NCBI RefSeq assembly: GCF_003315035.1
Contig: NZ_QNRE01000002.1
Span: forward strand, 124,001 to 188,000
Reading direction: 5' to 3'
DNA: 64,000 bases
DNA from: Nocardia puris
GTDB lineage: Bacteria > Actinomycetota > Actinomycetes > Mycobacteriales > Mycobacteriaceae
In this document: one piece after another, positions 27,841 to 52,161 of the stretch
Layout: each line of letters begins with the position of its first letter
Numbering within the stretch: the first letter of the stretch is position 1
Made by a program: the position numbers and the translations under genes
The notes under the pieces: model-generated
The model's database searches: none
Seen by the model: the letters and a program-made list of their open reading frames with translations, nothing else
Told to the model about the DNA's origin: nothing

Positions 27841-28659
27841 TCAGCTCACCTCTCTGCGCATCTGGGCGGTGATGACGTGCTGGTAGCCGGAGCCGAGGAG
27901 GCGGGGGAGGAGGTCGATGACGCGGGCGTCGGCGCCGACGAGGATTTTGGCCTTGTCGCGGCGGATGCCGCGCAGGATGGTCTTGGCGGCGGCTTCGGGG
28001 GTGGTGCGGGCCAGGCGGTCGAAATTCGCGGCCAGCGCGTCGCGGTCGCGGTCGCCGCCCGCGCGGGCCTTCCAGGCGATGCCGGTGCGTACCATGCCGG
28101 GGTGCACGCTGCTCACGCCGACCGGGTGGCCCGCGATGCGCATCTCTTGGCGCAGCGCGTCGGTGAAGCCGCGGATGCCGAATTTCGTGGCGTTGTAGGC
28201 GCCTTGGCTCGGGCACGCGGCGAGACCGAACATGCTGGACACGTTGGCGATATGCCCGTCACCGGAGGCGATCACCTGCGGCAGAAAGGCTTTCGTGCCG
28301 TGCATGACACCCCAGAAGTTGATGTTCACGATCCATTCGAAGTCCTCCCAGCTGAGTTCCTCGACGGTGGCGGTGAGCGACACCCCGGCGTTATTGACCA
28401 GCAGATTCGCCGGTCCGAAGTCGGCCCGCACCTCGTCGGCGTGCGCATAGACGGCGGCACGATCGGTCACGTCGAGCTGATACGCCCGCGCCCGCGCACC
28501 GGCCTTCTCACACAGCGCGGCGGTCTCGGCCACGTTCTCGAGATTGCGACCCGAGAGCGCAAGATGCGCACCGACACCGGCCAATTCGAGAGCCAGTGCC
28601 CGCCCGATTCCCGCGCCCGCGCCGGTGATGACGGCGACTTTGTCCTGGAAGTTCTTCAC
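27841..28659 (-). CDS. Short-chain dehydrogenase/reductase
   Basis: A 272-residue SDR: NAD(P) motif TGAGAGIGRALALEL near residue 13, NNAGVS, catalytic serine in NVSSMFG and YNATK active site. The NRNLENV-like basic residue after strand 2 (LSGRNLENV) suggests NADP. A C-terminal extension with FDRLARTTPEAAAKTILRGI is common in lipid-type SDRs. It is last in a same-strand run SDR, KstD, SDR, SDR and 13 bases after the previous gene, so it is probably co-transcribed. The substrate is not predictable. Confidence 0.9.
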   Translation of the reverse strand: MKNFQDKVAVITGAGAGIGRALALELAGVGAHLALSGRNLENVAETAALCEKAGARARAYQLDVTDRAAVYAHADEVRADFGPANLLVNNAGVSLTATVEELSWEDFEWIVNINFWGVMHGTKAFLPQVIASGDGHIANVSSMFGLAACPSQGAYNATKFGIRGFTDALRQEMRIAGHPVGVSSVHPGMVRTGIAWKARAGGDRDRDALAANFDRLARTTPEAAAKTILRGIRRDKAKILVGADARVIDLLPRLLGSGYQHVITAQMRREVS

Positions 28660-28672
28660 GGATGTCCTCGGT

Positions 28673-29404
28673 TCATCGGGTGGTGTAGCCGCCGTCGGCG
28701 ACGAATTCCGCGCCGGTGCAATACCCCGACTCGGCGGAGATCAGGAACAGGACCAGATCGGCGAGTTCGCGCGCGGTCGCGGCGCGGGGGAGCGGCTGAT
28801 CGTGCACCATCCCCTGCGACCGCTCGGAGGTGGCCGTCATATCGGTCGCCACCACCCCCGGATGCACCGAGTTGACCCGCACCCCGTCGGCCCCGAACTC
28901 CTGCGCGGCCGCCTTGGTCATCCCGCGCACCGCCCACTTGGACGCCACGTACCCGAGAATCCCGCTGAACGCGATGATCCCGCCGATGGAGGAGATGTTC
29001 ACGATGGACCCGCCACCCGCCCGGCGCATGGACGGCAGCACCGCCTTCATCCCGAGGAACACCCCGACCTGGTTGACGTCGATCACCTTGCGGTAGTCGG
29101 CTTCCGACAGTTTCTCGATCGGATCGACGTGCACGATGCCCGCGTTGTTCACCAGGCCCGAGACGGGCCCGAAGGCGCTCTCGGCCCGTTCGACCACCGC
29201 CTGCCACGCCGCCTCGTCGGTGACGTCGAGGGGTTCGAACCGCGCCCGTTCCCCGAGTTCGGCGGCCACGGCCGCGCCCTCCTCGGCCAGCACATCGGCG
29301 ATCACCACCGACGCGCCCTCCTCGACGAGCCGCCGCGCGAACGCCGCACCCATCCCGCGCGCGCCACCGGTGATCAGGACCGTCCGGTCGCTCACCCTGC
29401 CCAT
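28673..29404 (-). CDS. Short-chain dehydrogenase (hydroxysteroid dehydrogenase-like)
   Basis: A 243-residue classical SDR with TGGARGMGAAFARRLVEEGA, an aspartate at the end of strand 2 (VVIADVL) indicating NAD preference, NNAGIV, SSIGG and YVASK. The GARGMG motif and overall pattern resemble 3-alpha/20-beta-hydroxysteroid dehydrogenases (FabG3/Rv2002 type). Its ATG lies 13 bases inside the end of kstD, so the genes are coupled. It has a sister gene of the same type at 31120 on the other side of kstD. Confidence 0.9.
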   Translation of the reverse strand: MGRVSDRTVLITGGARGMGAAFARRLVEEGASVVIADVLAEEGAAVAAELGERARFEPLDVTDEAAWQAVVERAESAFGPVSGLVNNAGIVHVDPIEKLSEADYRKVIDVNQVGVFLGMKAVLPSMRRAGGGSIVNISSIGGIIAFSGILGYVASKWAVRGMTKAAAQEFGADGVRVNSVHPGVVATDMTATSERSQGMVHDQPLPRAATARELADLVLFLISAESGYCTGAEFVADGGYTTR

Positions 29405-31107
29405 GTTCCGCTCCTGTCCTCGGGTGCCCGGGCCGCGTGCGCGGCCAGGTGGGTGGCGGCGATGTAGCCGAACACCATGGCGGGGCCGATGGTGGCGCCC
29501 GCGCCCGCGTAGCTGTTGCCCATCACGGCGGCCGAATTATTGCCCGCCGCATACAGTCCCGCGATCGGCGCGCCGTCGGCGCGCAGCACGCGGGAGTGCT
29601 CGTCGGTGACCAGTCCGCCCTTGGTGCCGAGATCGCCCGGCACCATCTCCACGGCGTAGTAGGGCGGCTTCTCCAGCGGCGCGAGGCACGGATTCGGGCG
29701 CACCGTCGGATCGCCGTAGTAGCGGTCGTAGGCGGATTCGCCGCGGCCGTAATCCTCGTCGCGGCCCGCGCGGGCGAAGCCGTTGAAGCGCTCCACCGTC
29801 GCGGTCAGCGTCGCGGCGGGCACGCCGATCAGCCCGGCCAGTTCGGCGAGCGTGCCGGCCTTCTTGATGATCCCGGCATCGAAGTACTTCTGCGGAATCG
29901 GCTGGCGCGGAAAGGTTCCCAGGAACAGGTAACGGTCGCGGAACCGCTGATCCATGAGGAAGTGCGCGGGCACGTGCCCGACACCGGTGGCGTGCCGCTC
30001 GTACATGGTGTGCACCACGTCGACGTAGCTGGCGGACTCGTTGGTGAACCGTTCCCCGGCCGCGTTGACCATGAGGCCGCCCGGCTGGGACCGTTCGGCC
30101 AGGCAGAAGAACGGCGGTCCGTCCGGATTGCGCACGGAAGGACCCCACCAGGCGTCGTCCATGAGATCCAGTGCCGCGCCCACGTTTTCGCCCGCGAGAA
30201 TGCCCTCGCCCACGTTCTCGGTGGCGCCGACGGTCCACTCGGTGCTCACCGGCCCGGTGAAGAAGCGCTCGCGCAAGGCGAGGTTGTGCTCGAACCCGCC
30301 CGCCGCCAGCACGACTCCGCGCCGGGCGCGCAGCGTGATCGGCACGCCGTCGCGTTCGGCGCGCACGCCGACCACCGCGTCGCCTTCGGTGAGCAGTTCC
30401 GTGAGCGGCGTGTTCAACCACACCGGCACCCCGGCGTCGCGCAGCGCCAGCCACAGCCGCGCGACGAGGGCCTTGCCCAGGCTCAGCGGCTGCCTGCCGC
30501 GCACCCGGTCCAGCACCGCCCGCGCGCCGACCTTCAGCGCCGTCCGTTTGCCGCGCCAGGTGCGGGCGATCATGTTCAGGTCGTGGAAGTCGCTGACGGT
30601 GAACGCGATTCCCTTCGGGCCCGACATGGTGGGCCGGTTGATCAGCGCGAGATCCGCGCCGAGGAGCCGTCCGTCGATGACCGCCGGTTCGATGCTGCGT
30701 CCCTGCGCGAGACCGCCCGGACGTTCCGGATGGTAGTCGGAATACCCACGGTCGTAGACGAATTCGAGGTGGGGCGTCCGCGCGCACAGGTAGGTCATCA
30801 TGCGTGGCCCGTGCGTGAGGAACGCGTCCTGTTTCGCGTGCGGAACGCGGTCTCCGACCACCGCTTTCAGGTAGGTGCGGGCCAGTTCCGCGCTGTCGGG
30901 CACGCCTTCGCGCACCAGCACGGGGTTATTGGGAATCCACACCCCGCCGCCGGAACGCGCCGTCGACCCGCCGAACGACCGGCTCTTCTCGATCAGCACC
31001 ACCGAGAGGCCGCGATAGGCGGCGGTGAGCGCGGCGGTCATCCCCGCCGCGCCCGAGCCGACGACCACCACGTCGTAGACCGCCGCGCGGTCCTGCTGCT
31101 GCGACAT
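29392..31107 (-). CDS. kstD: 3-ketosteroid delta-1-dehydrogenase-type flavoprotein
   Basis: A 571-residue FAD protein. It has the N-terminal VVVVGSGAAGMTAALTAAYR dinucleotide fold and the KstD loop SFGGSTARSGGGVWIPNN. Three residues match the known KstD active site: a tyrosine in RGYSDYHPERPGG, another in NESASYVDVVHTMYE, and the PPYYAVEMVPGDLGTKGG block with the oxyanion glycine. It should introduce a 1,2 double bond into a 3-ketosteroid A ring. ATG 31107 is chosen since GGGAG lies five bases upstream. It sits between two hydroxysteroid-dehydrogenase-like SDR genes, supporting a steroid substrate, though KstD paralogues vary in preference. Confidence 0.88.
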   Translation of the reverse strand: MSQQQDRAAVYDVVVVGSGAAGMTAALTAAYRGLSVVLIEKSRSFGGSTARSGGGVWIPNNPVLVREGVPDSAELARTYLKAVVGDRVPHAKQDAFLTHGPRMMTYLCARTPHLEFVYDRGYSDYHPERPGGLAQGRSIEPAVIDGRLLGADLALINRPTMSGPKGIAFTVSDFHDLNMIARTWRGKRTALKVGARAVLDRVRGRQPLSLGKALVARLWLALRDAGVPVWLNTPLTELLTEGDAVVGVRAERDGVPITLRARRGVVLAAGGFEHNLALRERFFTGPVSTEWTVGATENVGEGILAGENVGAALDLMDDAWWGPSVRNPDGPPFFCLAERSQPGGLMVNAAGERFTNESASYVDVVHTMYERHATGVGHVPAHFLMDQRFRDRYLFLGTFPRQPIPQKYFDAGIIKKAGTLAELAGLIGVPAATLTATVERFNGFARAGRDEDYGRGESAYDRYYGDPTVRPNPCLAPLEKPPYYAVEMVPGDLGTKGGLVTDEHSRVLRADGAPIAGLYAAGNNSAAVMGNSYAGAGATIGPAMVFGYIAATHLAAHAARAPEDRSGTWAG

Positions 31108-31119
31108 CCGCACTCCCGC

Positions 31120-31869
31120 TCAGTATCCGGCGCCGGTCAGCATGCCGCCGTCCACGACGACCTCGGCGCCGCTGCAATAGCTCGCGCCGTCGGAGGCGAG
31201 GAACAGCACCGCCTCGGTGACCTCCTCGGGCCGGCCCCAGCGCGGGATCGGCAGCGTGGAGAAGAACGCGTCACCCCCGACCTCCGAGGCGACCCGCGCC
31301 GTCATCGGCGTCGAAATCCCGCCTGGATGCACGGAATTCACGCGCACACCCCGGGGGCCGAGTTCGCGCGCGGCCGATTTCGTGAGCCCGCGCACCGCGA
31401 ACTTGCTCGCGCTGTAGGCGGACAGGCCGGCCGCCCCGATGAAGCCCTCCACCGAGGAGACGTTCACGATCGCGCCGCCGCCCGCCGCGATGATCGCCGG
31501 CGCGGCCGCCTTGATGCCCAGCCACGCGCCGGTCACGTTGACCGAGAGGATGGTGGTGAACTCGGTCGGCGTCATCTCGGCGATGCTGCTGAACTTCAGG
31601 ATGCCCGCGTTGTTCACCAGGATGTCGAGCTTGCCGAACTCCGCCCGCGCGGTGGACACCGCGGTGTCCCAACCGGATTCGCTGGTCACGTCGTGGTGGA
31701 CGAACCGGACGTTATCGCCGAGGTCGGCGGCCAGCTTCTCGCCCTCCTCGTCGAGCACATCGCCGAACACCACCCGCGCGCCTTCGGCGGCGAAGCGGCG
31801 CACATGGGCCGCGCCCATGCCGCGCGCGCCTCCGGTGACCAGCGCGACCTTGCCTTCGAGTCGACTCAC
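31120..31869 (-). CDS. Short-chain dehydrogenase (3-alpha/20-beta-hydroxysteroid dehydrogenase-like)
   Basis: A 249-residue classical SDR with TGGARGMGAAHVRRFAAEGA, an NAD-type aspartate (VVFGDVLDEEG), NNAGIL, VSSVEG and YSASK. It closely resembles the FabG3 branch that oxidises hydroxysteroids. It starts with GTG at 31869, is the first gene of the run ending at 27841, and is divergent from the LLM monooxygenase operon, with which it shares a 151-base control region. Confidence 0.9.
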   Translation of the reverse strand: MSRLEGKVALVTGGARGMGAAHVRRFAAEGARVVFGDVLDEEGEKLAADLGDNVRFVHHDVTSESGWDTAVSTARAEFGKLDILVNNAGILKFSSIAEMTPTEFTTILSVNVTGAWLGIKAAAPAIIAAGGGAIVNVSSVEGFIGAAGLSAYSASKFAVRGLTKSAARELGPRGVRVNSVHPGGISTPMTARVASEVGGDAFFSTLPIPRWGRPEEVTEAVLFLASDGASYCSGAEVVVDGGMLTGAGY

Positions 31870-31980
31870 CGCGGACCTTCCTTTCTCTGGGGTTCGACTC
31901 GACGCTATGGCCGCGGGTCCGGTCCGCCCCGGCGCAGTCCCATCCAGCGAGACATGGTCCTGACCTCCACCTCAGCATCG

Positions 31981-31996
31981 GAAATATTTCTACTAG
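31981..31996. promoter_or_regulatory. AT-rich palindromic element shared with the 49.3 kb control region
   Basis: GAAATATTTC is a perfect palindrome inside GAAATATTTCTACTAG. The 12-mer GAAATATTTCTA recurs with one change at 49293-49304, and TATTTCTACTAG recurs with one change at 50889-50900. In both divergent regions it stands about 30 bases ahead of the plus-strand start codon. It may be an operator or simply a similar promoter. Confidence 0.35.
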
Positions 31997-32020
31997 GCAT
32001 AGTCAGATGTGGAGGAACGC

Positions 32021-33199
32021 ATGAAGTTCTCGATGATCTTCGAGGCGCAGATGACCGATCCGTCGGCGGCGCACGAGCGGCAGGTGCTGCGCGACTGCGT
32101 GGCGCAGGCCGTGCTCGCCGAGGAGATGGGTTTCGACACCGTGTGGGCGGTCGAGCACCACGGGCTCAAGTGGTACGCGCATATGAGCGCGCCGGAGATC
32201 TTCCTGACCTGGGTCGCCGCGCGCACCGAGCGGATCAGACTCGGTCACGGCGTGGTGTGCATGCCGTTCAACTTCAACCACCCGGTGCGGGCGGCCGAGC
32301 GCGCCGCCATGCTGGACGTGCTCTCCAACGGGCGGGTGAACCTGGGCGCGGGCCGTGGCGCGACACCGCAGGAGACGTCCATGTGCGGGGTCGATCCGGA
32401 GCGCACCTACCAGGAGGTGGAGGAGGCGCTGCGCATCATCGGCCGCGCGTGGCAGGACCCGGAGGGCGAATTCGAGTGGCACGGTGAGCTTCTCGACATC
32501 GACCCGAATCCACTGCTGCCGCGCCCCGTCCAGCTGCCGCACCCGCCGCTGTTCATGGCGTGCACCAAGAAGGAGACCCTGCAGCTGGCCGCGGACTACG
32601 GCATCGGCGCGCTGGTGCTGGGTTTCGCCGGCGTGGAGGAGATCGCCGAGCTGCGCCGCACCTACGATCGCGCGATCGCCGCGCGCACGGGGGAGAAATT
32701 TGTCTCTACCGTGGTCAACGACCATTTCGCGGCCTTGTGCCCGACCGTGGTGCTGGAGGATCGGGAGCGGGCGCAGCAGATCGGCGCACGCGGGCAGCGG
32801 TTCTTCGCCCAGTCGATCAAGCACTGGTACGGCGCGGGCCCGGTGCCGGACGAGGCGGTGGACCGGTCGGTGGACGAGGTCGCGGCGATCCAGCAGGCCG
32901 CCGAGGAGCACGTGGCGTACCTGCACGAGGCGAAGATCCCGGTGAAGCCGGGCGCGACCTCGGTGTTCAACGTCGAACACGCCTACGGGCGCCCCGAGGA
33001 CGCCATCGCCTACGTGGAGCGGCTGCGGGAGGCGGGTGCGGACGAGATCCTGTGCCTGATCCAGATGGGCACCGTGCCGCAGGAGGTGTGCCTGGAGACG
33101 ATCCGGCACTGGGGTGAGACGGTGATCCCGCACTTCCGCGCGCAGTCGAACGGATCAGCCGTGTCGGCGGGACGGCATGCCGCGCCGAGCGAGGTGTGA
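32021..33199 (+). CDS. LLM-class flavin-dependent monooxygenase
   Basis: A 392-residue luciferase-like TIM-barrel protein: AEEMGFDTVWAVEHH, the non-prolyl cis-bond region RIRLGHGVVCMPFNFNHPVR and RAAMLDVLSNGRVNLGAGRG are typical. It should use FMNH2 (or F420) to oxygenate or oxidise an organic substrate. ATG 32021 follows GGAGG by five bases. It leads a same-strand group with an alpha/beta hydrolase and a VOC protein and is divergent from the KstD/SDR run. The substrate is unknown; context suggests steroids or terpenoids. Confidence 0.9.
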   Translation: MKFSMIFEAQMTDPSAAHERQVLRDCVAQAVLAEEMGFDTVWAVEHHGLKWYAHMSAPEIFLTWVAARTERIRLGHGVVCMPFNFNHPVRAAERAAMLDVLSNGRVNLGAGRGATPQETSMCGVDPERTYQEVEEALRIIGRAWQDPEGEFEWHGELLDIDPNPLLPRPVQLPHPPLFMACTKKETLQLAADYGIGALVLGFAGVEEIAELRRTYDRAIAARTGEKFVSTVVNDHFAALCPTVVLEDRERAQQIGARGQRFFAQSIKHWYGAGPVPDEAVDRSVDEVAAIQQAAEEHVAYLHEAKIPVKPGATSVFNVEHAYGRPEDAIAYVERLREAGADEILCLIQMGTVPQEVCLETIRHWGETVIPHFRAQSNGSAVSAGRHAAPSEV

Positions 33200-42946: not shown

Positions 42947-44038
42947 TCAGCCGGTGAACACGCTCCCGCCCGGGCCCGCGCCGGTGGCGATGGGCGCGCC
43001 CGCAGGCGTCAGGTCGGACGCGTCGAACGGCACCAGCGCGCCCGGTGCGCCCGCCGCACGCAGGATCGGTTGCAGCACGGAGGTGACCTCGAAACCGGCG
43101 GCGGGCAGCAGCAGCGGCGCGGCCTGCGGGCCGAGGCTGCCGACGTACATCTTGGCGCCGTCGGCGGTGAAGCCCACCGACACGGGCGCGTCGACCGGCA
43201 CCGAACCGGTCACCGCGCCGGCGGCGACATCGATGATCTGCACCGCGTCCGCGCCGGGCGTCGCGACCAGCAGGCGGTCGCCGCCCGGGCTGAACGCGCC
43301 CGACACCGGCGCGCTACCGGAAGGCAGCATGATGGCGCCGACCCGGGACCAGGACGCGGTGTCGATCACCGACACGTTGTCGCCGATCGCGTTCATCACG
43401 TAGAGCGTGCCGCCGTCGGGGGACACGGCGGCGCCCGACGGCGCGGAGCCGTCGATCTGAATGCGTTCGCCCAGTTGGAATCCCGTCTCCGGATCGAAGA
43501 CGGCGGCGGTGCTGTCGGCGAACACCGCGTAGAGACGGCTGCCGTCGGGCGCGATCTCGGCGGCCAGCGGCAGACCGGGCAGCGGCATCGAGCGCACCAG
43601 CGTGTGGGTGGTCGTGTCGATCACGTCGATCGCCGGGTACGCGGTCACCACGTACACGAGGTCGCGGACCGGGTCGGCGAGGGGAGCGGTGAAGCCGTCG
43701 GTGCCGGAGATCGGCACGCGGGCGCTGACCTCGCCGGTGGCGGTGTCGACCACCGCGACGTCGTCGGCGCCGAGGAACGGCGGGTTGAACGCCTGCACGT
43801 ACACGTGCCGCCCGTCGCGGGCGGCGGCCACCGACGCCGTGTGCGGGCCGACGCCCTCGACGCGCCCCACGATCCGGTCGGAGACGGTGTCGACCACCAC
43901 GACGGAGCCGTCGCCCGCGACGGGCACGTACGCGCGCGGGTTCCCCTCGTCGGCCGCGGCGGTCGGCGCGAGCAGCGCCAGGGCGGCCGCGGTGAGCGCG
44001 AACGCGCGCGACGGCAATCCACGGAACCGGATCGGCAT
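42947..44038 (-). CDS. Secreted YVTN-type beta-propeller protein
   Basis: A 363-residue protein with a clear signal peptide (AFALTAAALALLAPTAAADE) and repeated propeller blades such as DGSVVVVDTVSDRIVGRVEG, DVAVVDTATGEVSARVPI and DAVQIIDVAAGAVTGSVPVD. YVTN/NHL-type propellers act as binding scaffolds or lactonases outside the membrane. ATG 44038 places the signal peptide at the expected position; an upstream in-frame extension is not needed. No catalytic residues can be named. It reads towards the AAA protein gene from 185 bases upstream. Confidence 0.87.
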   Translation of the reverse strand: MPIRFRGLPSRAFALTAAALALLAPTAAADEGNPRAYVPVAGDGSVVVVDTVSDRIVGRVEGVGPHTASVAAARDGRHVYVQAFNPPFLGADDVAVVDTATGEVSARVPISGTDGFTAPLADPVRDLVYVVTAYPAIDVIDTTTHTLVRSMPLPGLPLAAEIAPDGSRLYAVFADSTAAVFDPETGFQLGERIQIDGSAPSGAAVSPDGGTLYVMNAIGDNVSVIDTASWSRVGAIMLPSGSAPVSGAFSPGGDRLLVATPGADAVQIIDVAAGAVTGSVPVDAPVSVGFTADGAKMYVGSLGPQAAPLLLPAAGFEVTSVLQPILRAAGAPGALVPFDASDLTPAGAPIATGAGPGGSVFTG

Positions 44039-44170
44039 CGTGTGACCTTTCGTGTCGGGTGTCGAAGGGACTATTGCGTGTTCTCGTCGCGCTCGCAAGC
44101 TGTCGCGTGAGTAACTTCGCCCGGATTGCGATGCGGGGCACGGTGATACGGGGGAGTCGCGCGGGCCCGA

Positions 44171-44647
44171 TCAGTCGGTAGCGGCCCACATGTTCGACAG
44201 GAGCCGGTGGCTCGGGGTGTCGGCGAGCGAGCGGCTGGCCTCATAAATTCGCCGGTACCCGGTCTCGGCGATCCGCCACACGCCGTCGTCCTCGCGCCGG
44301 TAGCGGTCGGTGTAGTAGCCCGCCCCGCGGATCTCCACGCCATAGGCGGTCGCGAGGACGGTGTCCTCGAAGGCCCAGGACCCGGTGGCGGTGTCGCCGT
44401 CGACGGTGATCTCGGGATGGTTCGCGATATGAACGGTGATCACGTCGGGGCCGAGGTTCTCGCGTAGGAATGCGGTGATGGCCGCGCGCCCGTCGAGGAC
44501 GAGCGGCTCGCCGAGGGCCCGGGTCCCGTATCGCCCGATCGCGTCCTCGGTGAGCGTGTCCGCGAACTCGGTCCACGCCTTGAGGTCCAAAGTCCGGAAG
44601 TACCGGTACTTCAGCTGCCGGATGGCTTCTACGGCCGCGAGATCCAC
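44171..44647 (-). CDS. SnoaL/NTF2-like protein
   Basis: A 158-residue cone-shaped NTF2-fold protein: AIRQLKYRYFRTLDLKAWTE, the long strand ITVHIANHPEITVDGDTATG and the final VWRIAETGYRRIYE. Such proteins are ligand-binding or act as isomerases/dehydratases of the ketosteroid-isomerase superfamily. GTG 44647 is favoured, as GGAGGG lies seven bases upstream. A KstR-like box begins 34 bases upstream, suggesting a place in sterol catabolism. The catalytic dyad cannot be fixed by eye. Confidence 0.85.
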   Translation of the reverse strand: MDLAAVEAIRQLKYRYFRTLDLKAWTEFADTLTEDAIGRYGTRALGEPLVLDGRAAITAFLRENLGPDVITVHIANHPEITVDGDTATGSWAFEDTVLATAYGVEIRGAGYYTDRYRREDDGVWRIAETGYRRIYEASRSLADTPSHRLLSNMWAATD

Positions 44648-44680
44648 GGGTCCACCCTCCCACAGCCCACCGGTCCGGAC

Positions 44681-44694
44681 AAGAACGTGTTCCA
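44681..44694. promoter_or_regulatory. Near-consensus KstR-type operator upstream of the SnoaL-like gene
   Basis: Read on the gene's strand, TGGAACACGTTCTT matches seven of the eight fixed KstR positions. It begins about 34 bases ahead of the GTG start at 44647, the usual place for a repressor site. Confidence 0.4.
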
Positions 44695-44700
44695 GTTTGT

Positions 44701-44780
44701 TCAGTCGAACCGGCCGCGCAGCGACGCCACCCCGGGACCGTCGACGAAGTCCAGCGCGACCGGGCGCCCGGTCGCCGTAG
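44701..44780 (-). pseudogene. C-terminal remnant of an unidentified minus-strand gene
   Basis: One frame ends PVALDFVDGPGVASLRGRFD at a TGA at 44703-44701, while a second frame just upstream reads GEGPPPNWSFYGDR. Both have the look of real protein but are joined out of frame, and no gene body precedes them. I cannot identify the family. It probably marks a gene mostly lost by deletion. Confidence 0.35.
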
Positions 44781-44799
44781 AAACTCCAGTTGGGTGGAG

Positions 44800-45171
44800 G
44801 GCCCTCGCCGGGCGGCGGCACGAGATCGAACGCGAGATCGGCGCACTGGAATGGCGGTGCGCGCTGCTCGACGGTGCGGTGGCCCGGCCGGGCAGGGGAT
44901 CGGCTGGCCCTGCTACGGCGAGGTGCTGCCGCTGGTGGCCGCCGGCGTCGCGCCGCGGCCCGGCGCGGAGCTGGACCGGTTCGTCGCGGCGCACGCCGCG
45001 GCGAGGGGCGTCCCCGACCTCCCCGCGTTGCGCGGGCGATTGCTCGCCGCCTCGGCCCACGACGACCCGTGTTTCGACCGGTACTGGGCGTTGACCGCCG
45101 AGGCGGGGATGGTCGAGACCGCGGGACCCGCGCATCGGTGGTTATACGACGCCCTGCGGGTGTCGGGGTGA
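44800..45171 (+). pseudogene. Frameshifted remnant, possibly of a MerR-type regulator
   Basis: One plus-strand frame gives RRHEIEREIGALEWRCALLD, the coiled-coil style that follows a MerR DNA-binding domain. The continuation GWPCYGEVLPLVAAGVAPRP to MVETAGPAHRWLYDALRVSG is in a different frame, and the N-terminal DNA-binding domain is missing. Identification as MerR is tentative, but disruption is clear. Confidence 0.4.
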
Positions 45172-45181
45172 TCGGGGCCGG

Positions 45182-46060
45182 TCACCGGGCCCAAGCGTGC
45201 CCCCAATAGCTGTCGGCGGTGATTTCCTCTGCGGTGTAAGCGGTTTCGTCAACCAGCAGGCCGTCGGTGCCGTACTCCAGATCCCAGCCGCCGGGGGTGC
45301 GGACGTAGAAGGAGACCATCTTGTCGTTGGTGTGGCGGCCGAGCGTGGAGGACAGGTGGTAGCCGGCGGCGGTGACGCGGTCCAGCGCGCGGCCCACATC
45401 GTCGAGGGAGTCCACCTCCACCATCACGTGCACGAGACCGGGCCCGTCCGCCCCGCCGGCCGGGATGAGGGCGAGGCTGTGGTGGCGCGGGTTGACACCG
45501 AGGAAGCGCAGCCGCATCGGCCCGGCCTCCGGCGGCGCGGGGAGCCGGAACGCCCCGCGCGGCAGGAAACCCAGCACGTCGGTGTAGAAGCGGAACGCCT
45601 CGTCCAGGTCGGGCACCGGAAGCACCACGTGGCCCAGCCCGAGACCCCCGGTGACGAAACGGCTGCCGTACTTGGGGACGACGGGACTATGGTCGAGCAC
45701 CGGCCCGTGGAAGATCTCCACCGGCGTGCCCGCCGGATCGGTGAACGCGAGCGCCTCCTCCACGCGCAGCGCGTCGGTCTCGGCGACCGACAGCGTCTTC
45801 ACCTCGATACCGGCGTCGCGCAGGGCGTTTCGCGCCTCCCACAGGGCCCGCCCGTCCCGCACTTCCCACCCGACGGCGAGCACGCTGTCGGTCGCGCCGG
45901 GGACGAGTTCCAGCCGCGCGCTGCGCTCGTCCATCCGCAGCCGGAGGGTGTCGGTGCCGCCGCCGTCGGCGAAGCCGAGCACGTCGAACGCGAACTCCCG
46001 CCACGCCGCCGCCTCGCGCACCGAGACCCGCACGTAGCCGAGTGAACTGATCACACCCAT
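45182..46060 (-). CDS. Extradiol (type I VOC) ring-cleavage dioxygenase, HsaC/BphC-like
   Basis: A 292-residue two-module VOC dioxygenase. The catalytic module has histidine 144 (GLGHVVLPVPDLDEAFRFY), histidine 211 (GLVHVMVEVDSLDD) and glutamate 262 (GGWDLEYGTDG), the 2-His-1-carboxylate iron site, at spacings nearly identical to BphC and HsaC (146/210/260). Histidine 193/194 and 243 and tyrosine 252 also fit the active site. It should cleave a catechol next to its hydroxyls. It is the last gene of the KshA/KshB-type operon, 12 bases after the reductase, so the catechol may be steroid-derived. Confidence 0.9.
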   Translation of the reverse strand: MGVISSLGYVRVSVREAAAWREFAFDVLGFADGGGTDTLRLRMDERSARLELVPGATDSVLAVGWEVRDGRALWEARNALRDAGIEVKTLSVAETDALRVEEALAFTDPAGTPVEIFHGPVLDHSPVVPKYGSRFVTGGLGLGHVVLPVPDLDEAFRFYTDVLGFLPRGAFRLPAPPEAGPMRLRFLGVNPRHHSLALIPAGGADGPGLVHVMVEVDSLDDVGRALDRVTAAGYHLSSTLGRHTNDKMVSFYVRTPGGWDLEYGTDGLLVDETAYTAEEITADSYWGHAWAR

Positions 46061-46072
46061 GGATTGTTTCTC

Positions 46073-47065
46073 CTAGTCGTAGCTGATCCGGACCGTGTCG
46101 GTGACCGGAACCGCCTGGCAGGCCAGCACGTAGCCGTCGGCCAGGTCCTCCTGTTCGAGGACGTCGTTGCGCAGCAGCTTCACCTCACCGTCGCGCACCC
46201 GGCACACACAGGCGCTGCACGCGCCCTCCCGGCACGAGTAGGGCGCGTCGACGCCGCGCGCGAGCAGGGCGTCGAGCAGGACGCGCTCGCGCGGCCAGGC
46301 GAATTCGTGTGTGATGCCGTCGATCTCGACGGAAGCGGCGGCGGAGTCGGCCGACGTGGACAGCGCGGCGAACGGATCCGCCGACATCGAGACGAACCGT
46401 TCGGAACACACGCGCTCGATGCCGAGGGCGCCGGCGGCCACCCCGACCGCGTCCATGAAAGGTTCTGGGCCGCAGACGAACACGGGCCGCCGCGACCACG
46501 GCGCCATCAGCGCGGTCAACCGCTCGGGTGTCGGCAGTCCTTGCCCGGACTCCAGCCAGTGCACCACCGTGAACCGGTCGGCGTGGGCCTGCGTGAGCGC
46601 GGCTAGCTCCCGCGCGAAGATCACGGACCGTTCGTCGCGGTTGGCGTACACCAGGGCGCAGCGCCCGGTTCCGTTGGCCAGCACGGACTTCAGGATCGAC
46701 AGCACCGGCGTGATCCCGCTCCCCGCCGCCAGCAACAGCAGATCCTCGGCATCGGATTCGGGCGTGAACACGCCACCCGGCGGCAGCGACTCCAGTACCA
46801 GACCCTCGGCGGCGTTGTCGCACAACCAGTTCGAACCGCGCCCGCCCGCCACCCGCTTCACGGTGACCTGCCACGGACCTCCCTCGTGCGGCGCGCTGGA
46901 CAGCGAATACGACCGGGCCACCGCGCCTTCCGCACACGGCAGACGCAACGTCAGGAATTGCCCGGCGCGGTACGGCGGCAGCTCGCCCGACACCGGTTCG
47001 AACCGGATCGACACGGCGTCGGCGGTCTCGGGCACGACCTCCACGATGCGCAGCGACAGACTCAT
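46073..47065 (-). CDS. kshB: Ferredoxin reductase component, KshB-like
   Basis: A 330-residue reductase: FAD-binding motif RSYSLSSAP after residue 70, NAD-binding GSGITPVLSILKSVL, and a C-terminal plant-type 2Fe-2S domain with CREGACSACVCRVRDG and a fourth cysteine in LACQAVP. This order (FNR domain then ferredoxin) is that of KshB/HmpA and phenol-type reductases. It should pass electrons from NADH to the Rieske oxygenase encoded at 47359. Symbol assigned by context; a paralogue for another oxygenase is possible. Confidence 0.87.
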   Translation of the reverse strand: MSLSLRIVEVVPETADAVSIRFEPVSGELPPYRAGQFLTLRLPCAEGAVARSYSLSSAPHEGGPWQVTVKRVAGGRGSNWLCDNAAEGLVLESLPPGGVFTPESDAEDLLLLAAGSGITPVLSILKSVLANGTGRCALVYANRDERSVIFARELAALTQAHADRFTVVHWLESGQGLPTPERLTALMAPWSRRPVFVCGPEPFMDAVGVAAGALGIERVCSERFVSMSADPFAALSTSADSAAASVEIDGITHEFAWPRERVLLDALLARGVDAPYSCREGACSACVCRVRDGEVKLLRNDVLEQEDLADGYVLACQAVPVTDTVRISYD

Positions 47066-47132
47066 ACCCGCTCCTCGCCGGGATGCGGCCTTTGTACGGT
47101 GCGGCGGCGCCGGTTTCGCTCCTCGCGCTCGT

Positions 47133-47351
47133 TCACAGCAGATCCTGCTCCCGCATACTCAACCCCAGCGCCCCCGCCGTCACCGCGCCGTCGATGCTGC
47201 GCCGCAGCGCCGCGCACCCCGGCGACGGCCCGTCACCGAGTTCGGCGCACGAGCGTGCGGCGGCGGCGCTCCACTGCACGCTGGTGTGCGCGGGGCTGAA
47301 TTTCACGACGGCGACGCGGTTTCCGCAGCGCAGGCAGTCGACGGCGGCCAC
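47133..47351 (-). CDS. Small CxxC protein between the kshA-like and kshB-like genes
   Basis: A 72-residue protein starting with GTG eight bases after the kshA-like stop. It contains DCLRCGNRVAVVKFSPAHTS near the start and further cysteines in RSCAELGDGPSPGCAALRRS; the first CxxC could bind zinc, iron or act in redox. Its position inside a tight operon and codon bias support a real gene. I do not recognise the family. It may assist assembly or electron transfer of the Rieske system, which is speculation. Confidence 0.65.
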   Translation of the reverse strand: MAAVDCLRCGNRVAVVKFSPAHTSVQWSAAAARSCAELGDGPSPGCAALRRSIDGAVTAGALGLSMREQDLL

Positions 47352-47358
47352 GGCGCGC

Positions 47359-48504
47359 TCACGCCCCCGCGGCCCGCGCGGCCAGGTTCTCGGCCACCTC
47401 GGCCTCCCACGCGGTGACGGCGCGCGAGGTGTCGACCTCGAATTCGAAACGGGCCGTCATCTTCTCGTCCACCTCGGCCACATCGCGGTAGAACTGCTCG
47501 TACCAGCGGCGCAGCTGGTAGACCGGCCCGTCCTCCTCGCACAGCAGCGGATTGTCGATGCGGGTCTTGCGCCGCCAGATGGCCACATCCTGCTCGAACC
47601 CGCGCCCCAGGCTGCTCGCGTACCGCTGGGCCATCGCGTCGGCCTCCTCGGGCGTGAGACCGGGCGACTTCTCCACGATCGCGCCGTACTGGAGGACGAA
47701 TTTCGTGCGCGTCACGGGATAGTGGCAGTTGATCAGCACCGCGCGGGTGCGCTGCCCGCCGGACTCGTTGACCAGGTTGTCGATCATGTAAGAGGGGCCG
47801 TAGTAGTGCGCCTCGGAGTGCAGCACGTTCTCGCCGCCCGCCTCCTTGGCCAGCTCGCCCTGTACGTCGGCGCGGCCGATCGAGGTCATGTACTGGCTGG
47901 CGACGTGGCCCTCGAAGACGTTCTTGAAGTACGTCGGAAAAGCGAAGTGCACGTAGAAGAAATGCGCCATGTCGACCACGTTGTCGATCACCTCGCGGCA
48001 GTTGGCGCCGTCGATGACGATGCGGTTCCACGTCCAGTCGCTCCACCCCGCGCTGCCCGCGCCCTCGATCTCCGGAATGGTGATGTGCTCCGGCGGCGGA
48101 TTGCCCTCGGGGTCGTGCCACACGAACAGCTGCCCGTTGCGTTCCAGCGTCGGCCACGCGCGGGTGCGCGCCAGCGGCGGCACCCGCCGCGCGTACGGGA
48201 TGCCGGAACAGCGTCCGTTGCCCTTCCAGCGCCAGTCGTGGAACGGGCAGGCCAGCGCGTCGCCCTTCACGGTCCCGTCGCCGAGGTTGCCGCCCATGTG
48301 CCGGCAGTAGGCGTCGAGCACGTGCAGGCCGCCGTCCGACGCGGCGAACACCACCAGTTCGGTGCCGAAGACGGCGACCGTGTGCGGCTTGCCGTCCCGG
48401 AACTCGCGCGCCAGTCCCAGGCAGTGCCAGCCGCGCGCGTAGCGGGCCGGGGGCGCGCCGGTGTCGATCACGCGCACCTGGTCGTCGGTGTTCGCCGTGC
48501 TCAT
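47359..48504 (-). CDS. kshA: Rieske oxygenase, KshA-like (3-ketosteroid 9-alpha-hydroxylase type)
   Basis: A 381-residue terminal oxygenase. The Rieske cluster ligands are C67, H69, C86 and H89 (YCRHMGG ... CPFHDW), and the mononuclear iron site is NVVDMAHFFYVHF with H181 and H186, the same numbering as KshA. The Gly-Asn-Leu Rieske loop and the KSTR-like middle domain fit the family. It should 9-alpha-hydroxylate a 3-ketosteroid, opening ring B with KstD activity. It lies second in the operon after the flavin reductase. Multiple KshA paralogues with different preferences are usual in Nocardia and Rhodococcus. Confidence 0.92.
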   Translation of the reverse strand: MSTANTDDQVRVIDTGAPPARYARGWHCLGLAREFRDGKPHTVAVFGTELVVFAASDGGLHVLDAYCRHMGGNLGDGTVKGDALACPFHDWRWKGNGRCSGIPYARRVPPLARTRAWPTLERNGQLFVWHDPEGNPPPEHITIPEIEGAGSAGWSDWTWNRIVIDGANCREVIDNVVDMAHFFYVHFAFPTYFKNVFEGHVASQYMTSIGRADVQGELAKEAGGENVLHSEAHYYGPSYMIDNLVNESGGQRTRAVLINCHYPVTRTKFVLQYGAIVEKSPGLTPEEADAMAQRYASSLGRGFEQDVAIWRRKTRIDNPLLCEEDGPVYQLRRWYEQFYRDVAEVDEKMTARFEFEVDTSRAVTAWEAEVAENLAARAAGA

Positions 48505-48616
48505 GATGTCGCTTCCTCCACGGTGTTTCGCTCAGGACTATGCCGATCCGGACCCTTTCGATGCTGCGGTCCGCACGGGGACGCGCGGTAGGCGCGGTCC
48601 CACTGATCGGGAGGTG

Positions 48617-49093
48617 TCAGACGGCGGCCAGCCGCTCGTAGGCGGACCGGTAGAACAGCAGGGGAGCGGCCTCGCGCAGTTCGGCGAGGCCGGTGACGCG
48701 CGCGATGGCGATGGTGTGATCGCCGCCGTCCACCTCGCGCTCGAGCACGCAGTCGATCCAGGCCAGCGAATCGTCCAGCAGCGGTGAGCCGTTCGGCGAG
48801 GGCCGCCAGCCCAGGCCGTCGAACTTGTCCGCGCCGCTGCGCCCGAGCCTGCGGCACACCTCGCGCTGGTCGTCGGCCAGGATGTTGACGCAGAACTGTC
48901 CGGCCGACCGGATGCGCGGCCAGGTGGTGGAGGTGCGGGCGGGGAAGAGCGCGACGGCCGGCGGGTCCAGCGAAAGCGCCGAGAAGGACTGGCAGGCGAA
49001 GCCGACCGGTTGCCCGTCGCTGTGCGCGGTGATCGCGGTGACACCGGTGCAGAACCGGCCCAGGACGGCCTTGTAGTCGGGTGCGGCGGTCAT
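48617..49093 (-). CDS. Flavin reductase, HsaB-like
   Basis: A 158-residue flavin:NADH reductase of the DIM6/NTAB family: FCTGVTAITAHSDGQPVGFA, CQSFSALSLDPPAVALFP and QFCVNILADDQREVCRR are diagnostic. It supplies reduced FMN or FAD to a partner monooxygenase such as HsaA. The HsaA-like oxygenase in this window is 30 kb away at 17417. It is the first gene of the operon running to 45182 and is divergent from iclR across 242 bases with a perfect inverted repeat. Confidence 0.9.
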   Translation of the reverse strand: MTAAPDYKAVLGRFCTGVTAITAHSDGQPVGFACQSFSALSLDPPAVALFPARTSTTWPRIRSAGQFCVNILADDQREVCRRLGRSGADKFDGLGWRPSPNGSPLLDDSLAWIDCVLEREVDGGDHTIAIARVTGLAELREAAPLLFYRSAYERLAAV

Positions 49094-49259
49094 GGTGCTC
49101 CAGATTTCGATTCGGAATATGTCGTTTCGCCATGACGGTAGGCGGTGGCGCGCGGATGCTGTCAAGCGCGGATTCCGGCTGCCGGGAGAGTTCCGTACCG
49201 ATCTCCGTAGTTTCCGGGATTCGCCCCGGCCGGGCGGACGGCACTGTGATGGGTGACAC

Positions 49260-49288
49260 AGGAATGTGTGCCGAAACCACACATTCCT
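49260..49288. promoter_or_regulatory. Perfect 11-base inverted repeat in the iclR / hsaB-like divergent region
   Basis: AGGAATGTGTG (49260-49270) and CACACATTCCT (49278-49288) pair perfectly around CCGAAAC. Located 47 bases ahead of the iclR start and 167 bases from the flavin-reductase start, it is the best candidate operator for the IclR protein. A CRP-like TGTGA-N6-ACACA word lies just upstream but departs from consensus. Confidence 0.7.
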
Positions 49289-49335
49289 AATCGAAATACT
49301 TCTATGCTGGACCCGCTAGATGATGGAGGTGCCCC

Positions 49336-50175
49336 ATGACGGTCGAGATGTTGACCCATCCCGAGTCCGGTGAGTGGACGGGAGCGGGTCGTGCGACCGC
49401 CAGGACGGCGCCGCCGCCGGTGTCGATGATCGAGCGGATGACGCTGATCCTAGACGCCTTCGACGGCGCGACGCCGACCCTGACCCTGCTCGGACTGGCC
49501 GAGCGCACCGGCCTGCCGCGCTCCACGGTGCACCGCATCCTGGACCAGATGATCCGCCTGCGCTGGCTCGCGCACGCGCCCGGCGGGTACCGGCTGGGTA
49601 TGCGGTCGCTCGAACTGGGCGGACTCGTGGCCGACCACAACGAGATTCGCGATGTGGTGAGCCCGCTGCTGCACGATCTGTGCCAGCGCACCGGCATGGT
49701 CGGCCACCTCGGCGTGCTGGACGGGCGCGAGGTGCTGTATCTCGACAAGGCGGGCGGGCGCCTGGCCGCCACCATTCCGACCCGCCTCGGCGGGCGGATG
49801 CCCGCGCACAGCACCGCGCTGGGCAAGGCGCTGCTGGCCACGCTGGAGCCGAGCATCGTGGAGGCGTCGCTGCGGGATCGGTTGCCCCAGTTGACCTCCC
49901 GCACGGTGTGCGACCGCGCCGAACTGCACCGCGAACTGCACCGGGTGCGCAACCGCCAGGGTGTCGCGGTGGACAACGAGGAGTCGCTGGCGGGTGTCTC
50001 CTGCGTCGCCGTGCCGATCCGCGGGCGGGGCGCGGCCATCGCGGCGCTCTCGCTCTCGGGGCGGGTCACCGCCGAACGCCCGGCGCTGGACACCGCGCGC
50101 CTGGCCCGCGTGCTCGTCGAGGTCTCGCACGAAGCCGGCCGTGCGCTGTTCCCGCGCCACGCGCGCTGGCGTTGA
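49336..50175 (+). CDS. IclR family transcriptional regulator
   Basis: A 279-residue regulator: winged helix (MTLILDAFDGATPTLTLLGL, GLPRSTVHRILDQMIRLRWL) and effector domain with GREVLYLDKAGGRLAATIPT and HSTALGKALLATL, standard IclR features. ATG 49336 follows GGAGG by six bases. It is divergent from the flavin-reductase/KshA/KshB/dioxygenase operon and followed by padR on the same strand. It probably senses a pathway intermediate and controls that operon. Confidence 0.92.
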   Translation: MTVEMLTHPESGEWTGAGRATARTAPPPVSMIERMTLILDAFDGATPTLTLLGLAERTGLPRSTVHRILDQMIRLRWLAHAPGGYRLGMRSLELGGLVADHNEIRDVVSPLLHDLCQRTGMVGHLGVLDGREVLYLDKAGGRLAATIPTRLGGRMPAHSTALGKALLATLEPSIVEASLRDRLPQLTSRTVCDRAELHRELHRVRNRQGVAVDNEESLAGVSCVAVPIRGRGAAIAALSLSGRVTAERPALDTARLARVLVEVSHEAGRALFPRHARWR

Positions 50176-50196
50176 CAGCAAGTTACCGTCCGGCAT

Positions 50197-50856
50197 ATGC
50201 CTGAGCGATATAGTCCGGTGGTGACCGAAGCCAAGCGTGACGCGGTGGGCGCGATCCCCGAGTTGCCCGCCACGAGCTGGGCCGTGCTCGGGATGCTCTC
50301 GCACGCCGACGAGTTGTCCGGCTACGACCTGAAGAAGTGGGCCGACTGGAGCCTCCAGTTCTTCTACTGGAGTCCGTCGTTCAGCCAGATCTACGCCGAA
50401 CTCAAACGGCTGGAGAAACACGGCTACGCGCGCTCGCGCACCGTCCTCCAGGACGACGGCGTGCGCGGCAAGCGGGTCTACGCCATCACCGAGACCGGCC
50501 GCGACGCCGTGGCGCACTGGGTCAACCACGCGCCGGTGGAACCGCCCGTGCTCAAGCACACGGTGATGCTGCGCGCCTGGCTCGGCCACCTCGCCGAGCC
50601 CGAACGCCTGCGCGAGATCCTCACCGAGCACATCGCCAACGTGGAACGCATGCGCCACTTCGCCGAGGTGGATGCCGAAGGCGCGGAAGAGAATCCGCAG
50701 TGGGCCTATCCCGGAGCGGTGCTGCGCTGGTGCGTGCGGCACTACGAGGCCGAGCGCGATCTCGCCCGGGAACTGCTGGCCGACGTGGAGAAGCTGACCG
50801 CGCAGCGCAAGCCGAAGCGGGCGGCCAAGGGCAAGGCGCGCGGCGCGGCCCGCTGA
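50197..50856 (+). CDS. PadR family transcriptional regulator
   Basis: A 219-residue PadR with the winged helix SWAVLGMLSHADELSGYDLK, the recognition segment SPSFSQIYAELKRLEKHGYA, wing GVRGKRVYAITETGRDAV and a C-terminal dimerisation helix domain (HTVMLRAWLGHLAEPERLRE). ATG 50197 begins 21 bases after iclR; GTG 50218 or 50221 are alternative starts. It is followed by a ribBA gene across a long inverted repeat that may be its operator. A basic tail (AQRKPKRAAKGKARGAAR) ends the protein. Confidence 0.9.
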   Translation: MPERYSPVVTEAKRDAVGAIPELPATSWAVLGMLSHADELSGYDLKKWADWSLQFFYWSPSFSQIYAELKRLEKHGYARSRTVLQDDGVRGKRVYAITETGRDAVAHWVNHAPVEPPVLKHTVMLRAWLGHLAEPERLREILTEHIANVERMRHFAEVDAEGAEENPQWAYPGAVLRWCVRHYEAERDLARELLADVEKLTAQRKPKRAAKGKARGAAR

Positions 50857-50873
50857 GCGGGACACCGCCTTCC

Positions 50874-50905
50874 TATGACTACTAGATCTATTTCTAATAG
50901 TCATA
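50874..50905. promoter_or_regulatory. Long interrupted palindrome ahead of ribBA
   Basis: TATGACTA (50874-50881) pairs with TAGTCATA (50898-50905), and just inside them TAGA pairs with TCTA, with one mismatch between. The AT-rich palindrome begins 17 bases after the padR stop and ends 14 bases before the ribBA ATG, overlapping its probable core promoter. It is a strong candidate PadR operator. Confidence 0.65.
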
Positions 50906-50919
50906 TAGGAGGTGTGGTC

Positions 50920-52161
50920 ATGGCACACGAACGGACCTTGGACCCGATCCCGGCGGCAGTCGCCGCGATCGCGGCGGGCGGCATGGTCGTGGTGGTGGAC
51001 GACGAGGACCGCGAGAACGAAGGCGATCTCGTGCTGGCCGCCGCGGCGGCGACCCCGGCCGCGATCGCGTTCCTGGTGCGGCACACCAGCGGCGTGCTGT
51101 GCGCGCCGATGCCGGGCGAGGCGCTGGACCGGCTGGCGCTGCCGCCGATGACGGCGGTGAACGAGGACCCGAAGGGCACCGCCTACGCCGTGTCGGTCGA
51201 CGCGGCGCGCGGCGTCTCCACGGGCATCTCGGCGGCCGATCGGGCCCGGACCCTGCGCGCGCTGGCCGACCCCGCCACCACACCCGCCGATCTGACCAGG
51301 CCGGGCCATGTATTCCCGCTGCGCGCCCACCCGGACGGCGTGCTGGGCAGGCCCGGACACACCGAGGCGGCCGTGGATCTCACCCGGCTGGCCGGACTCC
51401 CGCCCGCCGGTGTGATCGCGGAGGTCGTGCGCGACGACGGCGAGGTCGCGCGCCTGCCCGAACTGCTGGCATTCGCTCGCGCGCACGGTCTTCCGATCAT
51501 CTCCATCGCCGATCTGATCGAGCACCGCCGCCGCGCGGAGCGGACGCTCGCGCGGGTCGCCGAGACGCGAATGCCCACCGCGCACGGGGATTTTCGCGCC
51601 CTCGGCTATCTCGACGCGGCCACCGGCGTCGAAACGCTGGCGCTCGTGCTCGGACAGCCCGGCCCGGAGGACGCCTTGGTGCGGCTGCATTCCGAATGCC
51701 TCACCGGCGACGCGTTCGGGTCGCTGCGCTGCGACTGCGGTGACCAACTGGACGCCGCCCTGCGCGCCGTGGCGGCCGAGGGCAGCGGTGTGGTCGTCTA
51801 CCTGCGCGGGCAGGAGGGGCGCGGCATCGGGTTGCTGAACAAGTTGCGCGCCTACGAGTTACAGGACCTTGGCGCCGACACCGTCGAGGCCAATCTGGCG
51901 CTCGGCCTGCCCGTGGACGCGCGTGACTACGGGGCGGGCGCCGAGGTGCTGGCCGATCTCGGCATCCGATCCGTGCGTCTGCTGACCAACAATCCGGCCA
52001 AGCGCGGCGGGCTCGAGGCGCACGGGATCGCGGTGACGCGCGCCGTGCCGCTGCGGACGGCCCCGACCGAACACAACATCCGGTACCTGCGTGCCAAACG
52101 CGATCGCATGGACCACCGATTGCCGGAGATCGGCGCGGAGCTCGAGCGCGTGGGGTCGTAG
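50920..52161 (+). CDS. ribBA: Bifunctional DHBP synthase / GTP cyclohydrolase II
   Basis: A 413-residue fusion for the two entry steps of riboflavin synthesis. The RibB half has [19 protein letters not shown] and [14 protein letters not shown]; the RibA half has [20 protein letters not shown] and CGDQ (zinc cysteines) and [11 protein letters not shown]. Both active sites look complete. ATG 50920 follows AGGAGG by seven bases. It is not beside other rib genes and no FMN riboswitch is visible; instead it is coupled to padR and lies near flavin-dependent oxygenase genes, so it is likely an extra, pathway-linked copy. Confidence 0.93.

Follow-up and report, generated by a model that had tools for sequence, protein, structure and literature searches.

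Described hydroxylase systems and the Nocardia puris locus

3-Ketosteroid 9α-hydroxylase (KSH) initiates the opening of the steroid nucleus and has industrial use, and both of its components, KshA and KshB, have been reported to be essential for the pathogenesis of Mycobacterium tuberculosis (PMC4064121). Its earliest characterisation dealt with a partly purified system of three components from Nocardia sp. M117 (Strijewski 1982, via PMC4064121). The subject of the present analysis is a small gene of Nocardia puris, located between a kshA-like and a kshB-like gene in a stretch of 64,000 nucleotides (assembly GCF_003315035.1, contig NZ_QNRE01000002.1, positions 124,001 to 188,000; hereafter the window). 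The gene occupies positions 47133..47351 of the minus strand and encodes 72 residues, with a GTG start at 47351 and a stop ending at 47133. The gene is conserved, and in the actinobacteria examined both its occurrence and its position follow those of kshA; we give an even chance to the reading that its family is a four-cysteine (Cys4), probably zinc-binding, accessory protein of KSH.

The Nocardia sp. M117 system has the same enzyme activity, comes from a Nocardia host and was reported to contain a second iron-sulphur protein; in the available text of PMC4064121 its third component is tied to no gene, and the cysteine spacing of the present family is unlike that of a known ferredoxin. The conserved columns of the family comprise one CxxC and two lone cysteines, spaced C-x2-C-x23-25-C-x8-19-C in the 15 commonest arrangements (190 of 201 members), with C-x2-C-x25-C in most members. 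Rubredoxin, in contrast, carries two CxxC knuckles, and the plant-type 2Fe-2S ferredoxin carries C-x4-C-x2-C-xn-C. Rieske-type ferredoxins use two Cys and two His ligands in CxH and CxxH pairs, whereas the window protein contains a single His and lacks such pairs, and in part of the family that His is replaced by Gln. The ferredoxins and beta subunits of other Rieske oxygenase operons resemble the present case in being a small third gene beside an oxygenase and a reductase, yet their cysteine pattern differs; no 2Fe-2S ferredoxin, Rieske or Ring_hydroxyl_B family occurs among the listed matches at E ≤ 1 for 27 members of the family.

The small zinc-ribbon and zinc-knuckle proteins (e.g., Zn_ribbon_RPAB4 and zf-FPG_IleRS) share with the family a CxxC knuckle and two further cysteines, that is, four candidate ligands; the family differs from them in giving weak matches only and no fold match at E ≤ 0.001. 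Membership of an annotated family was rejected: the window protein scores below the cut-off of every Pfam and NCBIfam family (zf-FPG_IleRS scores 14.4 bits against a curated cut-off of 21.3), and the matches of the 27 members are weak. The commonest of these in Pfam is Zn_ribbon_RPAB4, which 7 of the 27 match (lowest E 0.0034). Stray Fe-S-type matches occur in one member each (E 0.09–0.35); NCBIfam gave one redox-protein match (E 0.063). A sequence search of the PDB returned no credible relative, the top match being a T-cell receptor chain at E 0.11.

In M. tuberculosis, the family member is presumed, on the basis of synteny in close relatives, to be Rv3527, which is numbered after kshA (Rv3526); in the close relative G787, whose KshA is 95% identical to PDB 2zyl, a member with a reading frame open to 149 residues lies directly downstream. 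Mycobacterial-type members carry an N-terminal extension of about 55–75 residues, depending on the start, relative to the 72-residue window protein. Rv3527 is marked as a hypothetical gene proven to be needed in macrophages and mice, and is given, like Rv3526, as not found in M. leprae (PMC6429209); it also appears in a list of "Hypoxia-Repressed, Reaeration-Induced Genes" (PMC2905415) and in a transcript table (PMC3207917). A KstR motif precedes kshA, with binding shown for MSMEG_5925 of M. smegmatis and the tuberculosis site tabulated as not determined (PMC1995591); Rv3527 would share this motif with kshA.

A conserved small gene that accompanies kshA

The open reading frame is a real gene under purifying selection: in a codon comparison of six Nocardia genes, the ratio of nonsynonymous to synonymous substitution (dN/dS) is 0.14–0.34 in all 15 pairs; the third codon position is the most often changed, again in 15 of 15; and relatives share the start and the gene order. 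The closest relatives (L182–L186) have ATG at the matching start position, where the window copy has GTG, and three of them, from Nocardia lijiangensis, N. amikacinitolerans and N. xishanensis (L182–L184), have a gene order identical to that of the window. A chance reading frame is thereby ruled out by dN/dS and by the homologues. A single-sequence search found relatives in 23 of 40 genomes. With a profile made from a 27-member alignment, 147 copies were detected in the order, spread over 100 of its 298 genomes; the N. puris genome is counted in both searches. Pooling of the loci yielded 202 distinct members with a length of 45 residues or more, from 213 matches before repeats and short ones were dropped.

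All four cysteines are kept in 201 of these 202 members. The knuckle C6-x-x-C9 (codons at 47325..47336, minus strand, as are the following) has both cysteines in 201 of the 201 members that possess both columns, while C35 (47247..47249), C46 (47214..47216) and W27 (47271..47273), the last belonging to an (H/Q)-T-S-V-Q-W motif, are present in 202 of 202; T23 and Q26 are conserved in 199 and 200, respectively. The knuckle is CxC in two members (L138 and L156), several Nocardia members have an additional Cys after it, further non-conserved cysteines are present in some members, and some carry an N-terminal extension. On a plasmid of Rhodococcus erythropolis R138 (L180, 6001-6219), the family gene is absent from a gene table that is incomplete according to PLSDB, its slot lying between two annotated genes.

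The presence of the gene follows that of kshA across genomes. With KshA scored as PF19298 KshA_C at E ≤ 1e-30, the domain is found in 101 of the 298 order genomes: the 100 carriers of the small gene, without exception, and G108, which has a weak match (E 4.2e-33); in each of the genera g15, g16 and g19, a KshA-less genome without the small gene stands beside a KshA-bearing genome with it. Similarly, the small gene occurs in 15 of 396 genomes sampled across the phylum, and precisely these 15 also give a strong KshA_C match (best E no higher than 6.5e-86), while six genomes with weak KshA_C only (E 7.4e-34 to 3.6e-41) lack the small gene; 14 of the 15 carriers are also in the order set, and the additional one, G659, comes from a different family. 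Genus g18 is presumed to be Mycobacterium, as its KshAs are up to 95% identical to that of M. tuberculosis. In this genus, KshA (query from PDB 2zyl, E ≤ 1e-150) is present in 281 of 297 genomes, and 15 of the 16 genomes without it are also without the small gene, the exception being G926, in which the small gene lies close to one end of a contig of 4250 bases without a kshA; among 16 hand-picked KshA-positive genomes, 15 have the small gene.

The position of the gene is equally regular. In total, 135 of the 147 order copies lie directly after kshA, 11 lie elsewhere within 13 kb of it and one is without it. Scripted placement put 124 directly after a listed kshA on the same strand, 129–474 bases past the end of the KshA_C domain, and 10 elsewhere within 15 kb (the largest distance being 12.7 kb), leaving 13 without a kshA among the matches listed; 11 of these 13 proved, in the fetched loci, to follow kshA directly (in L153 the kshA runs off the contig, and in L173 and L333 it looks broken), and another (L336) has kshA 7.6 kb away. 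One of the 11 non-following copies directly precedes kshA, which is therefore the direct neighbour in 136 of 147. Viewed from the kshA side, 124 of the 150 kshA matches listed in the order have an adjacent copy and 10 have a copy within 15 kb (hand count). In a further KshA clade (7 rows; Gordonia, Nocardia and Rhodococcus), the small gene stands before kshA, and among the best 80 of 261 confirmed named loci, 48 copies follow kshA, 5 precede it and 2 have it elsewhere. The N. puris genome itself has two kshA genes and two small-gene copies, each beside one kshA. The partner is kshA rather than kshB, because the small gene stays with kshA where the fetched flanks hold no kshB; within limited flanks, kshB was found in 90 of 145 adjacent-pair loci.

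In these two loci, L173 (G228:C1, about 5263-6070) and L333 (G275:C30, about 5747-6867), the kshA match is in pieces or changes frame, and the small gene directly behind it is open; it may have outlived its kshA there, or there may be sequencing errors. In a proteobacterium too, on a Sphingobium plasmid (L296, 5273-5698), a "hypothetical protein" follows kshA, but it has no match to the family profile.

The pairing with KshA is, moreover, stable in inheritance. From 150 adjacent pairs, the 145 with different KshA sequences were kept, and the distances among KshAs and among their small neighbours gave a Mantel r of 0.80 that was reached by none of 2000 permutations and that also reflects species kinship. 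Comparison within genomes was aimed at removing this kinship: in 17 genomes with two or more pairs, and with quartets of low KshA contrast excluded, the paralogue quartets agree in 208 of 225 cases, against a mean of 114 (standard deviation 9.7, maximum 144) over 200 partner swaps.

An earlier reading of the window from the sequence alone had proposed a 72-residue protein at exactly this position, with LRCG and further cysteines, and had linked it to a KSH-type oxygenase. The coordinates and the LRCG are borne out, the cysteines are those numbered 6, 9, 35 and 46, and the link to KSH is upheld by the distribution and position described above, 146 of 147 copies lying within 13 kb of kshA; homologues in comparable operons, whose absence that reading had named as a possible refutation, were found. 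Its label of a "metal or thiol protein" is one that the conserved cysteines suggest, and its word "dedicated" stands in part: most copies are linked to kshA, but the association is not fully exclusive, since some adjoin other genes of the cluster. It had also called the protein undescribed. This is accurate for Pfam, NCBIfam and the open-licence papers found, which hold no account of a family protein beyond "hypothetical"; however, a Tsukamurella member (WP_197467073.1) had been deposited as "hypothetical protein", and the presumed orthologue Rv3527 is named in three papers.

Proposed role and competing explanations

An accessory protein of KSH ranks ahead of an iron chaperone, an electron carrier, a regulator and a general helper of the steroid-ring step. 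In this proposal, C6, C9, C35 and C46 would hold one metal ion, most likely zinc, which would tie a three-stranded sheet to the C-terminal helix; a conserved face, K-x-S-x2-(H/Q)-T-S-V-Q-W, would dock on KshA and perhaps also on KshB, and docking would keep the oxygenase trimer assembled, active or iron-loaded in the cell. The small protein is probably translated together with KshA, because in the window copy 7 bases separate its start from the stop of kshA. The AlphaFold models of the window protein (predicted local distance difference test, pLDDT, 68.9; predicted template modelling score, pTM, 0.52) and of the longer-loop member L243 (pLDDT 75.5, pTM 0.61) show three strands, the first two of which are joined by the CxxC turn; one helix begins immediately past C35 and a long one immediately past the last Cys. 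The predicted fold suits a single Cys4 metal site. With these models of middling quality, Foldseek gave no match at E ≤ 0.001 for either, and a fold search with both returned one VIA row (Z 2.5) that is uninformative. Two observations on the enzyme itself count in favour of a helper: M. smegmatis KshA lost most of its activity on purification, and aerobically purified KshA of R. rhodochrous retained activity only together with KshB (PMC4064121).

Several points weigh against this proposal. The main objection to an essential third part is that KshA and KshB have been obtained as active purified proteins and function together, both in vitro and in E. coli (PMC4064121); the small protein is therefore not indispensable for catalysis. 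Co-inheritance of neighbouring genes can arise from linkage alone, and no interface pattern emerged in KshA when partnered and unpartnered KshAs were contrasted, a search for interface residues that was given up after it returned five scattered positions, mostly private to one clade. The association also has gaps on both sides. Sixteen of the 150 listed KshA_C genes have no copy nearby, and none of the 16 loci, all of which were fetched (two on contigs of about 4 kb), contains a relative; 11 of these kshA genes form one clade (98 in the Shimodaira–Hasegawa-like approximate likelihood ratio test, SH-aLRT). A family member is likewise missing from five proteobacterial kshA loci, from the fetched flanks of two plasmid kshA loci (L298 and L301, from Rhodococcus and Prescottella) and from G774, the remaining KshA-positive genome of the 16 sampled in genus g18. 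Conversely, the fragmentary copy L337 (G314:C26) has no kshA within 10 kb, and 25 of the 80 named loci mentioned above have none in flanks of about 5 kb. Some copies in Nocardia and Rhodococcus adjoin a FAD_binding_2 flavoprotein and a SnoaL-like gene, or OYE/FMO-type genes, and not kshA. Finally, the member of Nocardia crassostreae NBRC 100342 (L249, about 4947-5195), alone among the 202, lacks the CxxC and shows a short in-frame gap relative to its relatives, which may be a real loss or an assembly error.

Most of the 25 named loci belong by sequence to a "...PVPGR" subtype, which in the loci examined lies beside a FAD_binding_2 flavoprotein, a SnoaL-like gene or an SDR gene; five high-scoring copies of this subtype (in G018, G003, G255, G275 and G271) are 4.3–12.7 kb from kshA. 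The partnerless KshA clade L318–L328 consists of eleven paralogues, nine of them from genus g18, and provides a natural comparison group.

That the protein serves as a metallochaperone or repair protein, delivering or restoring KshA's labile mononuclear iron or its Rieske cluster, is unlikely, although a Cys4 protein encoded beside the oxygenase gene would suit such a task and the mononuclear centre is described as more labile than haem iron, in keeping with the activity losses of KshA on purification; against it, KshA matures in E. coli without the small protein (PMC4064121). Next in order, and also improbable, comes an electron-transfer component, a rubredoxin-like or unusual Fe-S iron carrier from KshB to KshA that would correspond to the second iron-sulphur protein of Nocardia sp. 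M117. The four conserved cysteines, the location of the gene between oxygenase and reductase in the window and the report of the first KSH, from Nocardia sp., as a three-component enzyme (PMC4064121) speak for this role, but the 1982 iron-sulphur proteins could equally be KshA and something unrelated. One CxxC with two lone cysteines, moreover, departs from the spacings of rubredoxin and plant-type ferredoxin, and the family's Fe-S and redox matches are the stray ones given above; KshB already contains a 2Fe-2S domain, and KshA and KshB are active in vitro without further help (PMC4064121). The bolder version, ranked just after the general one and likewise doubtful, holds that the third component of 1982 was a novel kind of Cys4 iron protein, which in vivo would hand on electrons between KshB and KshA or gate their flow; KSH in most actinobacteria, M. 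tuberculosis included, would then consist of three proteins.

Less probable again, and on a par with each other, are two roles at a greater distance from the oxygenase. A small zinc-ribbon-type regulator of the steroid cluster, sensing metal, redox state or a steroid intermediate, would accord with the weak zinc-ribbon likeness, as with Zn_ribbon_RPAB4, and with the copies found elsewhere in the cluster; a place immediately behind kshA, as 135 of 147 copies have, fits a protein partner better, and other regulators are at hand, of the IclR and PadR types beside the window operon and KstR in mycobacteria (PMC1995591). A helper of the whole steroid-ring step, guarding for instance against a reactive 9α-hydroxy-diene or seco intermediate instead of acting on KshA itself, would explain why paralogues in Nocardia-type genomes lie beside FAD_binding_2 (KstD-like), SnoaL-like, SDR and OYE genes, and a Rhodococcus plasmid paralogue beside flavoprotein and SDR genes, but kshA is the direct neighbour of the great majority of order copies (135 times before the small gene and once after it).

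The window operon and its meaning for KSH

In the window, the small gene is preceded directly by the kshA-like Rieske oxygenase gene (47359..48504, minus strand; PF19298 KshA_C E 8.1e-92, PF00355 Rieske E 1.3e-21), whose product matches PDB 4qdc at E 2.8e-176 and 2zyl at E 1.3e-163, and followed directly by the kshB-like reductase gene (46073..47065, minus strand; PF00111 E 5.5e-19, PF00175 E 7e-15), with FAD, NAD and plant-type 2Fe-2S (Fer2) domains. The domains of both neighbours agree with the placement given by the sequence-only reading, which was also right that the gene starts close downstream of kshA; it had counted eight bases, whereas 7 lie between the kshA stop, ending at 47359, and the GTG at 47351. 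The gap from the small-gene stop to the ATG of the kshB-like gene is 67 bases. On the same strand, an hsaC-like extradiol dioxygenase gene comes after kshB (45182..46060; NF045631 HsaC E 7.1e-99, under its cut-off), and an hsaB-like flavin reductase gene, with a provisional start, comes before kshA (48617..49180; PF01613 E 1.7e-42; NF045630 HsaB E 1.1e-63, just under its cut-off); an IclR-type regulator gene (49336..50175, plus strand; PF01614 E 1.2e-36) is divergent. An RNA-element search gave no Rfam match in 44000-51000, and no terminator-like site was found in 45000-49500, where the sole promoter-like site is on the plus strand, the wrong one for the operon. A second steroid-type catabolic block is possibly formed, 11–15 kb away from this operon at 27841-33199, by three SDR genes together with a FAD_binding_2 protein, which we take to be KstD-like, and a luciferase-like monooxygenase.

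KSH is treated as a two-component enzyme, and a small gene that tracks kshA means that the reconstituted enzyme may lack something that is present in cells. Over much of the kshA tree of actinobacteria the two genes keep together, and where there is no kshA, the small gene is missing too. It is a candidate for the three-component report of 1982, and it offers a lead on Rv3527, a "hypothetical" gene marked as needed in macrophages; for strains used in steroid bioconversion, its product could be a possible co-expressed helper. Taken together, the findings suggest that the supposedly two-part KSH enzyme has an overlooked helper.
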